Of a DNA stretch of 64,000 bases, positions 15,152-19,726 are shown in pieces. Each line of letters starts with the position of its first letter. Position 1 is the first letter of the stretch. The position numbers and the translations under genes were made by a program. The notes below the pieces were generated by a model. The model was not told the origin of the DNA. It saw nothing but the letters and a program-made list of their open reading frames with translations, and did no database searches. The stretch spans positions 2,022,501 to 2,086,500 of the forward strand of contig NZ_CP121694.1 of assembly GCF_035573695.1 (NCBI RefSeq). Direction: 5' to 3'. The DNA comes from Metallumcola ferriviriculae. Its GTDB lineage: Bacteria; Bacillota; JADQBR01.

Positions 15152-17506
15152 TTGTTGGACACTGTTCTCAAGGAAATGAAACAGGCGCTAATCAGAGAAA
15201 AAAAAGGTGCTTACAGCGACGCCGGTGTTTTTGGTGGATTTGCCATGTTTTTAAAGGAACAGTGCATTTTGCTGCGCAACGAGGCAAATTGGTCGGAAAC
15301 GGAAAAAGCAATTCTTGATGAATTAGTAAATTTGTCAGATGTCTATTATCGGAGTGATCATCAAACCCGTGCGGAGGTATTGGCACGGGTTTCTACTCTA
15401 TTAAATAAAATAACTTTACCCCCTGAAACCGTTGAAAGACCCGTTATAGGTCATTGGGGGCAGGGGAATTTTATATGGCAGGAAGTGGCTGTAATAAAAG
15501 GCGTCGGTACCAAACGCCGACAACAACTTCAGCGCTTGGGCATTAAAAAAGTATTTGATTTAATTTATCACGTGCCGCGGCGCTATTTAGACAGATCAAC
15601 CATGAAAAGATTCCGACAATTGAATGTTGGCGTTGAAGAAACTCTTAGGGTAAAAGTGCGCTCTGTAGAATTGCTGCAGCCGCGTAAGAGGCTTAATATA
15701 CTTAAAGCGCTGGTCTATGACGGGGAAAACTATGGTGTCGCCGTTTGGTTTAACCAGAGCTATTTACGGGCCAAACTTCGACCGGGTCTCGAACTAATTA
15801 TTACTGGTAAAGTACAGCTAAGCAGTGGGCGGTGGGAAGTTATCGTAACTGACTATGAAATACTAAATGCAGCTGAGGATGAACCGGTTCATACAGCCAG
15901 GATTGTGCCAGTTTATGGGGTTACTGAGGGGATTAGCCAGCGCATTATGCGTCAACTGATTTTTCAAACGTTGAATTTGATTCCCTACTACAAGGATTTT
16001 CTTCCCGAAGAGCTGCGCACTAAATATAATTTAATTGATTGGCGCCAGGCCCTATGGCAGATACATTTTCCTGATGATTGGTCATCTTTGAAACGAGCGA
16101 GGCAGCGATTAGTTTATGAGGAACTATTTTTAATGCAAATGGCTGTATCACAGCGCTATATACGCAGTGAGCGCCGCAGTGGAATTGCCCATACTAATGA
16201 AGGACAATTATGGCATGACTTTGTTCAATCTTTACCATTCACCTTCACTCGTGCTCAACGTAGAGTACTTAATGAAATTCGTAAGGACATGGGTCAGGCA
16301 CAGCCTATGACACGTTTACTGCAGGGTGATGTGGGGTCAGGCAAAACAATTGTTGCGACAGCTGCAGCAGTTAAGGCGGTGGCCAATGATTATCAGGTTG
16401 CGGTGATGGCACCTACCGAGATTTTAGCCAGACAACACTGTGAATCTCTTAACGCCTTATTTGAAGATTTGAATATTAGGGTAAGCTTGGTTAGCGGTAG
16501 TTTGTCTGCTAAAGAGAAGGCTAAAATTTATCGGGATATCCAGCGGGGTGAGATAGATGTTGTTGTAGGAACACATGCACTTATTCAAGAAACCGTTCAG
16601 TTTCATCGCCTTGGGCTGGCAGTAGTTGATGAGCAGCATCGTTTCGGGGTGATGCAGCGGGATGAATTGCTTAATAAAGGGGATAATGCCGACCTTTTGG
16701 TTATGACAGCGACGCCTATTCCTCGAACATTGTCATTGACCCTTTATGGAGACTTGCAGGTGTCCGTAATTGACGAGTTGCCACCGGGCCGGCAGAAAGT
16801 AATTACCCGGTGGGTAGGTGAAGAAAGGCGGGAAAAAGTACTGAGCTTTATTGGTCAAGAAATGAACGCGGATAGACAGGTTTATGTTGTCTGTCCTTTG
16901 GTAAGCGAATCAGAGAAACTGGATTTAGCGGCTGCAGAAGAAACCGCGCATTTGTTAATGGACCGCTTTAAAGATTTTAACGTTGGTTTAGTACACGGTA
17001 AAATGAAATCTACGGAAAAAGAGATGTATATGCAGGGGTTCTACCGGGGAGAAATTAACCTGTTGGTTTCAACAACGGTAATTGAAGTAGGGGTGGATGT
17101 GCCTAACGCGACTGTAATGATGGTGGAAGGAGCAGAACGATTTGGTTTAGCCCAACTCCACCAACTACGTGGTCGTATAGGGCGCGGAGAACATCGTTCA
17201 TACTGTATCCTGATGGGTGATCCCAAAACCGAAGTAGCACGAGAACGTTTGCAAGTTATGGAAAAGAGTGATGATGGTTTTGTAATTGCGGAAGAGGATT
17301 TACGACTTCGCGGACCCGGCGAAATATTCGGTACCCGCCAACACGGTTTGCCGGAGTTTAAGGTGGCGGACTTAATACGCGATGCAGAAGTAGTTCAACA
17401 AACATTCGACGATGCTCGGAAGCTTGTGCAAAACAAATCTAACTACCAACTGGGGATTTTTTCAGAGCTGATAGCATTGCGTTTCGGGAATGCAAAAATT
17501 TCGTAA
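15152..17506 (+). CDS. recG: ATP-dependent DNA helicase RecG
   Basis: RecG reverses stalled forks and branch-migrates Holliday junctions. The wedge/OB region begins near GVGTKRRQQLQRLGIKK; helicase motifs include GDVGSGKT at about 392-399, DEQHRFG near 493, TATPIPRT, and the C-terminal QLRGRIGRG. Length 784 is about 100 residues longer than the enterobacterial enzyme; the excess is an N-terminal helical extension (residues 1 to about 110), as in some thermophile and Clostridial RecG proteins. Start TTG 15152 or the TTG just after; GGGGTGA is upstream. A terminator follows. Confidence 0.96.
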   Translation: MLDTVLKEMKQALIREKKGAYSDAGVFGGFAMFLKEQCILLRNEANWSETEKAILDELVNLSDVYYRSDHQTRAEVLARVSTLLNKITLPPETVERPVIGHWGQGNFIWQEVAVIKGVGTKRRQQLQRLGIKKVFDLIYHVPRRYLDRSTMKRFRQLNVGVEETLRVKVRSVELLQPRKRLNILKALVYDGENYGVAVWFNQSYLRAKLRPGLELIITGKVQLSSGRWEVIVTDYEILNAAEDEPVHTARIVPVYGVTEGISQRIMRQLIFQTLNLIPYYKDFLPEELRTKYNLIDWRQALWQIHFPDDWSSLKRARQRLVYEELFLMQMAVSQRYIRSERRSGIAHTNEGQLWHDFVQSLPFTFTRAQRRVLNEIRKDMGQAQPMTRLLQGDVGSGKTIVATAAAVKAVANDYQVAVMAPTEILARQHCESLNALFEDLNIRVSLVSGSLSAKEKAKIYRDIQRGEIDVVVGTHALIQETVQFHRLGLAVVDEQHRFGVMQRDELLNKGDNADLLVMTATPIPRTLSLTLYGDLQVSVIDELPPGRQKVITRWVGEERREKVLSFIGQEMNADRQVYVVCPLVSESEKLDLAAAEETAHLLMDRFKDFNVGLVHGKMKSTEKEMYMQGFYRGEINLLVSTTVIEVGVDVPNATVMMVEGAERFGLAQLHQLRGRIGRGEHRSYCILMGDPKTEVARERLQVMEKSDDGFVIAEEDLRLRGPGEIFGTRQHGLPEFKVADLIRDAEVVQQTFDDARKLVQNKSNYQLGIFSELIALRFGNAKIS

Positions 17507-17511
17507 CATCA

Positions 17512-17555
17512 ATAACATTACAAAAAAAGGCTTAACCAATTTGGTTAGGCCTTTT
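17512..17555 (+). terminator. Terminator after recG
   Basis: AAAAAGGCTTAACCA pairs with TGGTTAGGCCTTTTT around a short AT loop (one G-U pair). Outer arms TAACATT and AATGTTA extend the stem. The T-run on the 3' arm makes it a good intrinsic terminator. Confidence 0.85.
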
Positions 17556-17579
17556 TCAATGTTACGTGATAATGTTTCC

Positions 17580-17609
17580 AGCATAGATTATTTTTATACG
17601 AGCACAATA
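17580..17609 (+). promoter_or_regulatory. Candidate forespore (sigma-G/F) promoter for the 40-aa SASP-like gene
   Basis: AGCATA (17580-17585), 17 bases, then CACAATA (17603-17609) resembles the sigma-G pattern TGMATA / CATACTA. The match is partial; the support is the position before a spore-type gene. Confidence 0.35.
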
Positions 17610-17631
17610 ATAAATGAGGTGACGATTTAAG

Positions 17632-17754
17632 ATGAATAAGAAAGAGGAGAAAAGTATTGATGGCCAATTAGAAAAGTTTAAGCACGAAGTCGCTCAGGAA
17701 ATGGGCATTCAACAACGCAACAACAAAAGGAAACCTAGTACCAATAAAAGATAG
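17632..17754 (+). CDS. Truncated SASP-like small protein (40 aa)
   Basis: A short basic protein whose residues 12-26 (QLEKFKHEVAQEMGI) match the N-terminal conserved block of alpha/beta small acid-soluble spore proteins, including an EVAQE sequence like the GPR cleavage site. The C-terminal DNA-binding block (GGHMVKKM in the two neighbours) is absent; instead the tail is Lys/Arg/Asn-rich. The ATG is preceded by GAGGTGA about 10 bases upstream. It lies directly before two full-length SASP genes. It may be a minor spore protein, a degenerate copy or a regulator; I infer a spore role from sequence and position. Confidence 0.65.
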   Translation: MNKKEEKSIDGQLEKFKHEVAQEMGIQQRNNKRKPSTNKR

Positions 17755-17792
17755 TCCTGTCAGTTCATACAAATACTTCTAGCAACAACAAA

Positions 17793-17821
17793 GTATAAAA
17801 ACATGTCTGCGAGCAATACTA
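17793..17821 (+). promoter_or_regulatory. Candidate sigma-G promoter for the first SASP gene
   Basis: AGTATA ends at 17797 and AATACTA lies at 17815-17821 with 17 bases between, close to the sigma-G consensus TGMATA / CATACTA. A very similar pair lies before gpr. It is about 31 bases ahead of the SASP start. Confidence 0.5.
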
Positions 17822-17852
17822 AGATTACAAAGCCGCAAAGGAGGTGAGCACA

Positions 17853-18071
17853 ATGGCAGCAGGACAAAAAACTAATCAATTAGTAGTTCCTCAAGCACAA
17901 AAAGCAATGGATCAATTTAAGTATGAGACTGCAGCTGAAGTTGGATTGAATTGGACAGGCGGATATGGTGGCGACATCCCCTCCAGACAATGGGGTGCAG
18001 TCGGTGGTCATATGGTTAAAAAGATGATTCAAGCATACGAACAAAATCTAGCTGGTACAACCCAGCAATAA
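17853..18071 (+). CDS. Alpha/beta-type small acid-soluble spore protein
   Basis: A 72-residue SASP that coats and protects spore DNA and is degraded by GPR on germination. The first block (QAMDQFKYETAAEVGL) contains the region cleaved by GPR; the second (GAVGGHMVKKMIQAYEQ) is the conserved C-terminal DNA-binding helix. It begins MAAGQKTNQL like its neighbour. ATG 17853 has an ideal AAGGAGGTG. Expected expression is late, in the forespore. The adjacent convergent gpr strengthens the assignment. Confidence 0.93.
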   Translation: MAAGQKTNQLVVPQAQKAMDQFKYETAAEVGLNWTGGYGGDIPSRQWGAVGGHMVKKMIQAYEQNLAGTTQQ

Positions 18072-18114
18072 CCCTTAAATAAAATTAAATTTTTTCAAGG
18101 AGGTGAATTAGCAA

Positions 18115-18348
18115 ATGGCAGCTGGACAAAAAACAAACCAATTAGTCATTCCTCAGGCTCAACAAGCTATGGAAAAATTTAAGCAGGAAACTGCTGCTGA
18201 AATTGGTATCCAGAATTATTCAGGTTACCTAGGCGATGTTCCTGCAAGATTGAATGGTGCAGTAGGCGGCCACATGGTTAAGAAAATGGTTCAAGCCTAT
18301 GAACAACAATTTGCCAACCAAAGTGGCCAACCTAATACACTACAGTAA
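18115..18348 (+). CDS. Alpha/beta-type small acid-soluble spore protein (second copy)
   Basis: A 77-residue paralogue of the preceding SASP, with the same MAAGQKTNQL start, the KFKQETAAEIGI first block and GAVGGHMVKKMVQAYEQ second block; the centre (YSGYLGDVPARLN) and the Gln/Asn tail differ. Strong AAGGAGGTGA Shine-Dalgarno. Only 43 bases separate it from the first copy, consistent with tandem duplication and joint transcription. A terminator begins about 10 bases after the stop. Confidence 0.93.
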   Translation: MAAGQKTNQLVIPQAQQAMEKFKQETAAEIGIQNYSGYLGDVPARLNGAVGGHMVKKMVQAYEQQFANQSGQPNTLQ

Positions 18349-18357
18349 TCTTTTGAA

Positions 18358-18388
18358 CAAGCGGGTCAAATGTGGCCCGCTTTTGCTT
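18358..18388 (+). terminator. Terminator after the SASP pair
   Basis: AGCGGGTC and GGCCCGCT form a GC-rich stem (one G-U pair) followed by TTTTGCTTT, just after the second SASP stop. Confidence 0.8.
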
Positions 18389-18519
18389 TACTTCTTATCT
18401 TCATTTTGCGCTTTTTCGAACTTTATTATTCAGTTTATCAGCTAAAAAAACAGCAAAAAAGTATTTCTAGAATGAAATTTGCCGTTTTTAGAAAAAATAA
18501 TACTGAAAGGAGGGTGAGC

Positions 18520-18690
18520 ATGGTAAAAGATTACAAAATGCCTGTCCCAAAAAGACAGGTAACTAAAAAAGCAGATTTGGAATTTGCTGCTGAACTTTTG
18601 AACCAAAAGACGGACAATCAGTTAATGGAATTTGCCCAAGAATATGAGGGAGATGTAAGACCAAAATTTGAAATTTATCCAGGAGAGTAA
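18520..18690 (+). CDS. Unrecognised 56-aa protein in the spore island
   Basis: The frame is open further upstream, but AAAGGAGGGTGAGC places the start at ATG 18520, giving 56 residues. The N-terminus is basic (MVKDYKMPVPKRQVTKK), followed by an amphipathic stretch (ADLEFAAELLNQKTDNQL) and an acidic, aromatic C-terminus. No cysteines, signal peptide or membrane segment. I do not recognise the family. It lies between the SASPs and gpr, with terminators on both sides, so it is its own transcription unit. A spore role is a guess from location only. Confidence 0.7.
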   Translation: MVKDYKMPVPKRQVTKKADLEFAAELLNQKTDNQLMEFAQEYEGDVRPKFEIYPGE

Positions 18691-18748: not shown

Positions 18749-19726
18749 TTATTGAAGAAGAGTCAACGCTTCTTCTTGTCCGACACCGGAATGAAGACCT
18801 TGATTAAGCCCTAACGCGATAGTTTTAGAAATTCTGTCAATGAGGTCATCAATCTCTTTTGGCGTCACTGTTAAATTACCTTCGAAGGGAGCAAGAACTT
18901 CGTTTACACTTTCTTGAACTGATTCCTGGTTAATCGTTCCTTGGAGGGAAGGGTTTTTTTCCAAAGCTTTGTTAAATGCTTCAAAAGCAAAAACTGCTGC
19001 ATGGACGACTGTGGGAACCCCTATTGCAATAACCGGCACTCCCATGGACTCAAAATTAATCCCTTTGCGTTGGTTACCTATGCCAGAACCAGGGTTAATC
19101 CCAGTATCGGCAACTTGAATAGTAGAGCTGATTCTTTCTACTGCACGGGCTGCTAAGGCATCAACAGCAATGATCAAAGCCGGTTTAGTCTTTTCTACCA
19201 CACCTTTTATAATTTCTGCGGTTTCGATCCCGGTAATACCTAACACACCCGGGGCGAGTGCTTCAACCGGACGGAGCCCTCCCTGCACAGCATCTGGAGC
19301 ATATTTGTACAGATGACGGGTAACCATACTTTGATTGATTACTCGTGGGCCCAGTGCATCAGGCGTAGCGTCCCAATTGCCCAATCCAACCAAGAGTATT
19401 AATGCATCTTCGTTGAGCTTAAAATTTTCTATCATCATTTCTAATTTTTCTGCCAAGACTTGACTTACTTCCTGTTGAACTCTTGAGTCATTATGTCTGA
19501 TGTCTGGGGCATCAATGGTAATATAGTTTCCTTGTGGTTTGCCAATCATTTGTGCGCCTTGGGCATTTAAGATGCTTACTGTTGTTACTGAGCAGAACTC
19601 ATGATCTTCTTTGCTTTCTTTCACTCCTTGAATTTCCTTTTGGGCGTCTCCTCTCAACAGCTCATGAGCTTCAACTGCCAGATCCAAATTTACGCCCATT
19701 GTTTTTAAATAAGCTTTAGCTTCCAA
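18749..19726 (-). CDS. gpr: Spore germination protease GPR
   Basis: GPR starts degradation of alpha/beta SASPs when spores germinate. It is an atypical aspartic-type protease made as a zymogen in the forespore. The segment GLGNWDATPDALGP holds Asp 123 and IIAVDALAAR holds Asp 189, which fit, with a constant offset of four, the two catalytic aspartates I recall for the Bacillus megaterium enzyme. The C-terminal VADTGINPGSGIGNQRKG block is also typical. 325 residues, TTG start with AAGGAGG nine bases upstream. It is convergent with genes for its own substrates. Confidence 0.95.
   Translation of the reverse strand: MEAKAYLKTMGVNLDLAVEAHELLRGDAQKEIQGVKESKEDHEFCSVTTVSILNAQGAQMIGKPQGNYITIDAPDIRHNDSRVQQEVSQVLAEKLEMMIENFKLNEDALILLVGLGNWDATPDALGPRVINQSMVTRHLYKYAPDAVQGGLRPVEALAPGVLGITGIETAEIIKGVVEKTKPALIIAVDALAARAVERISSTIQVADTGINPGSGIGNQRKGINFESMGVPVIAIGVPTVVHAAVFAFEAFNKALEKNPSLQGTINQESVQESVNEVLAPFEGNLTVTPKEIDDLIDRISKTIALGLNQGLHSGVGQEEALTLLQ

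Follow-up and report, generated by a model that had tools for sequence, protein, structure and literature searches.

A conserved half-length SASP gene near gpr in Metallumcola ferriviriculae and related anaerobes

The analyzed window, a stretch of 64,000 nucleotides of the Metallumcola ferriviriculae genome (contig NZ_CP121694.1, positions 2,022,501-2,086,500 of the forward strand), carries at 17632-17754 on the plus strand (window coordinates are used throughout) an open reading frame, running from ATG to TAG, for a 40-residue protein that consists of the first block of an alpha/beta-type SASP and a basic tail. This half-SASP gene has equally short homologues in related bacteria, most of them placed between recG and the germination protease gene gpr, and in its own family it is preceded by a conserved promoter-like sequence. 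Substitution ratios indicate purifying selection on both the core and the tail of the protein. As to its role, we give about an even chance to the half-SASP being a forespore protein whose association with DNA or SASP-coated DNA would be weak and which GPR would remove.

The encoded protein (P0001; MNKKEEKSIDGQLEKFKHEVAQEMGIQQRNNKRKPSTNKR) matches the Pfam SASP family PF00269 with 26.6 bits (cut-off 22, E 6.1e-06), over profile positions 4-32 of 59 only, and no other Pfam entry at E ≤ 10. An earlier note, made from the letters of this DNA, had described a 40-residue SASP with the first conserved block alone, and this description holds. Block 1 (codons of LEKFKHEVAQEMG; 17668-17706, plus strand) includes the sequence EVAQE at residues 19-23, a predicted GPR site of the EIA type; cleavage of SASPs by GPR at an EIA sequence is described in the accessible text of PMC8452069. 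The block is followed by a Lys/Arg/Asn-rich tail (codons of IQQRNNKRKPSTNKR; 17707-17751, plus strand) in which a direct count past Gly25 gave six Lys or Arg residues and no Asp or Glu, in line with the earlier description of the tail. The lack of the GGHMVKKM block, reported in the same note, was also borne out: the block is not present in P0001, which does not have the two-block SASP architecture, and a search of 180 bases past the stop codon found the pattern GG.M[VTI][KR] in no reading frame (0 of 52 short frames examined, that of the window included).

AlphaFold predicted for P0001 a single helix (residues 9-32) and a loose tail, with a mean pLDDT of 71.8 (seven sequences); the control, a full-length neighbor, was modeled poorly (mean pLDDT 54.3; helices 13-29 and 44-69), and the mapping of the helix is therefore weakly supported. 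A sequence search of solved structures with the 40 residues gave no match at E ≤ 1. Likewise, no NCBIfam model was matched at E ≤ 10, which is a weak test, since the full-length neighbors match no SASP model there either. Within its own genome the 40-residue sequence matches at one place.

The upstream neighbor (15152-17506, plus strand) is an open reading frame that we take to be recG, with homologues at the equivalent place in relatives. Downstream, two genes for full-length alpha/beta-type SASPs follow on the plus strand, ssp1 (17853-18071; PF00269, 96.1 bits) and ssp2 (18115-18348; PF00269, 89.7 bits), whose products cover profile positions 1-59 and 1-58, respectively; among solved structures, the sole match of the first is 2z3x (SspC). 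The next recognized gene is gpr, encoding the germination protease (TIGR01441, 384 bits; PF03418), which is convergent (18749-19726, minus strand). Between ssp2 and gpr lies a 56-aa open reading frame (18520-18690, plus strand) with a GPR-site-like sequence, DLEFAAELL, whose end, RPKFEIYPGE, is conserved. The frame is kept in both family relatives, and two members of a different family have distant matches (199 genomes searched, 5 with a match, its own included); possibly it encodes a further small spore protein.

The ribosome binding site attributed to the gene in the earlier note is present as GAGGTGA (17616-17622, plus strand) and is identical in the two family relatives (loci L031 and L032). 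After recG and upstream of the half-SASP gene, there is a terminator-like hairpin with a T-run (17524-17556, plus strand; -19.2 kcal/mol, z -7.6), which makes independent transcription of the half-SASP gene probable. As to the possible promoter mentioned in the note, a scan of 17400-18500 for sigma-70 promoters found none. A sigma-G-like pair, GCATA-N17-CACAATA, is present at 17581-17609 (plus strand), with equally spaced counterparts in L031 and L032. The three genomes of this family have in common GTTTCCAG(C/G)ATA and CACAATA, with a constant gap of 17 bases. Compared with the Bacillus subtilis sigma-G consensus, given as GNATA/CAWAMTA in Table 4 of PMC3416734 (a source available to us in part), the site has one mismatch, in the -10 element, and the sequence upstream of ssp1, GTATA-N17-AATACTA, is likewise one position off. 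The leader implied by the sigma-G-like site would be only about 16 nt long and would begin with the ribosome site, an unusual arrangement and a weakness of the assignment. Two versions of a loose sigma-G pattern each gave 5 matches over both strands of the 64 kb, and one version only also finds the ssp1 promoter; the corresponding chance values, 0.0075 and 0.0080 for a random sequence of 125 nt, are optimistic, because the patterns were composed after the site had been seen. From the promoter-like pair we infer that the half-SASP gene may be expressed in the forespore under the control of sigma-G.

A different leader feature was observed in Desulfosporosinus and its close relatives, in which a conserved hairpin with the loop GCGAWGNAGGYC stands just 5' of the half-SASP gene. 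It comprises 6 pairs, and the 21 aligned sequences show 5 double changes (alignment A8, including L043, positions 1400-1497, L071, L072, L046-L048 and other leaders). Rfam searches with five loci (L043, L071, L078, L047 and L001) returned nine matches at E ≤ 1, all of them under the curated scores, and none was accepted. A 15-base pattern of the hairpin, allowing 2 mismatches, occurred less often than the reversed control pattern in all but one of 11 genomes, the exception being G005; the pattern is too loose to be informative.

Conservation in relatives, which the earlier note had left to checking, was found: the homologues are equally short, span 11 family groups and mostly lie between recG and gpr. 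Two search profiles were used, A2, built from five short sequences, and A4, built from 21. With A4 at E ≤ 1e-7, 27 of the 398 genomes of the phylum draw gave a match and 371 did not; the matching proteins are half-length in 25 genomes and full-length in 2, and the 25 short homologues represent the groups f1, f4, f16, f35, f36, f50, f69, f76, f94, f107 and f123. Half-SASP is thus a minority gene in the phylum. Within the class that includes Desulfosporosinus, profile matches were obtained in 63 of 82 genomes (46/54 among those of good quality). Among the phylum and class matches 44 places were opened, 42 with short and 2 with full-length proteins. A pattern scan of the named genomes with A2 gave 28 loci, 21 from Desulfosporosinus, with Paradesulfitobacterium and Peptococcaceae also represented; these 28 include a full-length SASP (L095) and a locus outside the short-frame rule (L097). 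One Desulfosporosinus contig (LOEW01000003.1, by its coordinates probably contig C3 of genome G415) carries a pair of half-SASP genes separated by about 8 kb, of which one (L090) has gpr within 0.8 kb; in the locus of the other (L088) gpr was not found.

All 21 members of A4 match PF00269 at E ≤ 1 (P0001 being the one known to pass the cut-off), and no SASP model was present among their NCBIfam matches. The proposal of a class of its own among small spore proteins therefore holds at the level of a subfamily: there is a conserved short subfamily, but not a separate family. We read the half-SASP, from these comparisons, as a distinct half-length subfamily of the Pfam SASP family.

The genomic surroundings were compared in a set of 141 loci, which extend 1.5-4 kb per side and were found through protein similarity, not through their neighborhood. 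A short-frame rule picked 52 distinct frames from them, and 51 were left after removal by eye of an SspF-like one (L036). In 38/51 frames the gene called recG precedes the frame on the same strand, and in 47/51 gpr follows it on the opposite one; both are present in 36, neither in two (L052 and L088), and a contrary orientation was seen in none. These rows are not independent, because many come from one genus, which dominates the set. In several Desulfosporosinus loci (L076-L078, L080-L083 and L085) an extra 0.9-3.1 kb is found between recG and the half-SASP gene, and gpr stays within 0.25 kb of the latter.

Constraint on the protein was estimated at two levels. For a 33-codon region round the block, the median dN/dS of pairs at 75-99% DNA identity is 0.028 (239 non-independent pairs). 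A second comparison, of 30 sequences of the Desulfosporosinus type (435 pairs), gave pN/pS values of 0.38 for the N-terminus, 0.031 for the core and 0.076 for the tail; these ratios are rough, as synonymous sites are near saturation. Within the family of M. ferriviriculae, the synonymous divergence of the three sequences is too great for a ratio (pS 0.95-1.06, pN 0.31-0.38). The comparisons show that purifying selection acts on the core and the tail, and the low tail ratio marks the tail, at least in the Desulfosporosinus-type group, as constrained, not as random sequence ahead of a chance stop codon. The net charge of the tail ranges from +2 to +10 across the 51 short frames.

In the reading to which we give an even chance, the gene would produce, from its own promoter and in the forespore, a small, basic, single-helix protein, and would have been long retained near the gene of the SASP-degrading protease. 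The predicted helix carries the first SASP block with the GPR site, and the constrained basic tail takes the place of the second block. Helix and charged tail together would permit a weak association with spore DNA, or packing beside full-length SASPs on DNA. Early in germination, GPR would cut the protein, presumably between Glu19 and Val20, by analogy with other SASPs. Gly52 of SspC is a residue of the second block. Its replacement by Ala is reported to give poor DNA binding (accessible text of PMC11392383), and a protein without a second block may therefore not bind DNA at all.

It is possible, if somewhat doubtful, that the half-SASP is a free substrate of GPR with no DNA binding, that is, a small reserve or a decoy that would occupy or time the protease and stand in for the gamma-type SASP missing from these anaerobes. 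The retention of the GPR site together with the loss of the block bearing the DNA-binding glycine speaks for such a role, as does the frequent presence of gpr downstream, and the gamma-type SASP is reported as absent from the clostridial genomes of 2012 (PMC3533761) and as confined to Bacillus (PMC7985256), both sources being accessible in part. A pure substrate, however, would need neither the constrained basic tail nor the whole LEKFKYEVAQEMG block; a single 40-residue protein would be a small reserve, and the nearness to gpr may reflect old synteny only. We favor the association with DNA or SASPs over the role of substrate or decoy.

It may also be asked whether the short genes near gpr form one orthologous family or are convergent half-copies produced by repeated truncation, a history that would be compatible with the functional readings. 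The common block offers too few positions for a tree to be reliable, and the tails of distant members differ in length, from 11 to 35 residues, as convergence would allow. The genes nevertheless agree in where they lie and how they are oriented with respect to recG and gpr, and the frames have a common signature: E-[VIT]-A-Q-E is present in 51/51 of them, and Gln at that position in 11/59 full-length SASPs of the same loci. The 51/51 covers rule-fitting frames only, and the search profiles themselves contained Gln; the motif of the rule missed divergent short frames with Asp or Glu instead of Gln (L058/L121, L059 and L007), with Ser instead of Ala (L119), or with other spacing. Past the block, Arg occurs at Gly+4 in 36 of 41 sequences and Lys at Gly+7 in 35 of 41. 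Given this agreement, we consider repeated truncation unlikely. In two longer SASPs (L030 and L095) a tandem duplication of the first block, GPR site and helix 1 included, stands ahead of the second block, a doubling that fits a movable module.

A regulatory role, in which the half-SASP would cap or break cooperative SASP filaments or serve as a sporulation checkpoint factor in the manner of the Clostridium difficile SASPs, appears still less probable. It would agree with the copy number, since 62 of the 63 genomes with a match in the Desulfosporosinus class have a single one (G415 has two), and a single-helix form could conceivably join a filament and not extend it; that C. difficile SASPs regulate sporulation is stated in the accessible text of PMC11392383. 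The alternative of a decaying SASP copy, raised in the earlier note, or of a recently truncated one might be suggested by the missing half of the Pfam profile, by the two intact SASP genes that follow and by a seemingly broken copy in one relative, but it fails, and is highly improbable for this gene, as relatives keep the same short length and position across the 11 family groups under purifying selection that extends to the tail, with no remnant of a second block; for the family as a whole, decay is ruled out by conservation. The copy of that relative, G036 (L012, counted within the 51 short frames), has two stops in its matched N-terminal part and 26 open codons, precedes two full SASP genes and gpr, and may itself be broken or decaying.

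Among known spore proteins, the alpha/beta-type SASPs (PF00269; SspA/B/C/D, 2z3x) share with the half-SASP a first block that holds helix 1 and a GPR site, and differ from it in carrying the GGxMVKKM block where the half-SASP has a basic tail, and in length (72 and 77 residues in the full-length neighbors vs. 37-58 in the 21 members of A4). SspF/Ssp4-type clostridial SASPs, such as those of L006 and L036 (the label SspF is our own), possess the same helix 1, but keep the second block. Gamma-type SASPs have GPR sites, arranged as repeats with sites of the EFASE type, and no homology to alpha/beta-type SASPs; P0001, in contrast, has one GPR site only and matches PF00269. The gamma-type SspE resembles the half-SASP as a spore protein for which DNA binding is reported to be dispensable (PMC7985256, accessible part); the half-SASP sequence, unlike that of SspE, is alpha/beta-type, and clostridia are reported to lack the gamma type (PMC3533761, accessible part). 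The minor Bacillus SASPs SspK to SspP (34-50 aa) are, like the half-SASP, very small spore proteins; the accessible part of PMC3533761 lists them for Bacillaceae. For membership of the wider minor group (SspH to SspP and Tlp), the lack of any NCBIfam match of P0001 is a weak test. The Moorella spore proteome is reported to contain six alpha/beta-type SASP orthologues (PMC8745062, accessible part). The 2012 survey of sporulation genes gives, in its accessible part, SASP families and sizes with no half-length form (PMC3533761), and no description of a half-length SASP was found among the matches listed in a literature search that mostly covered texts free of subscription.

We propose tentatively, and with less than even confidence, that the half-SASPs form an undescribed orthologous class near gpr in Desulfosporosinus and many related anaerobes, and that they modulate SASP filaments or the timing of GPR rather than simply coat DNA. 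For annotation, the Pfam match would lead to such a gene being labeled an ordinary SASP. SASPs are taken as two-block proteins, in which good DNA binding depends on a residue of the second block; a conserved protein limited to a GPR-cleavable first helix, as predicted here, would be a natural separation of these two functions. The half-SASP offers a ready means to examine the function of helix 1 by itself and the choice of substrates by GPR, and to ask whether a substitute exists in anaerobes devoid of the gamma-type SASP.
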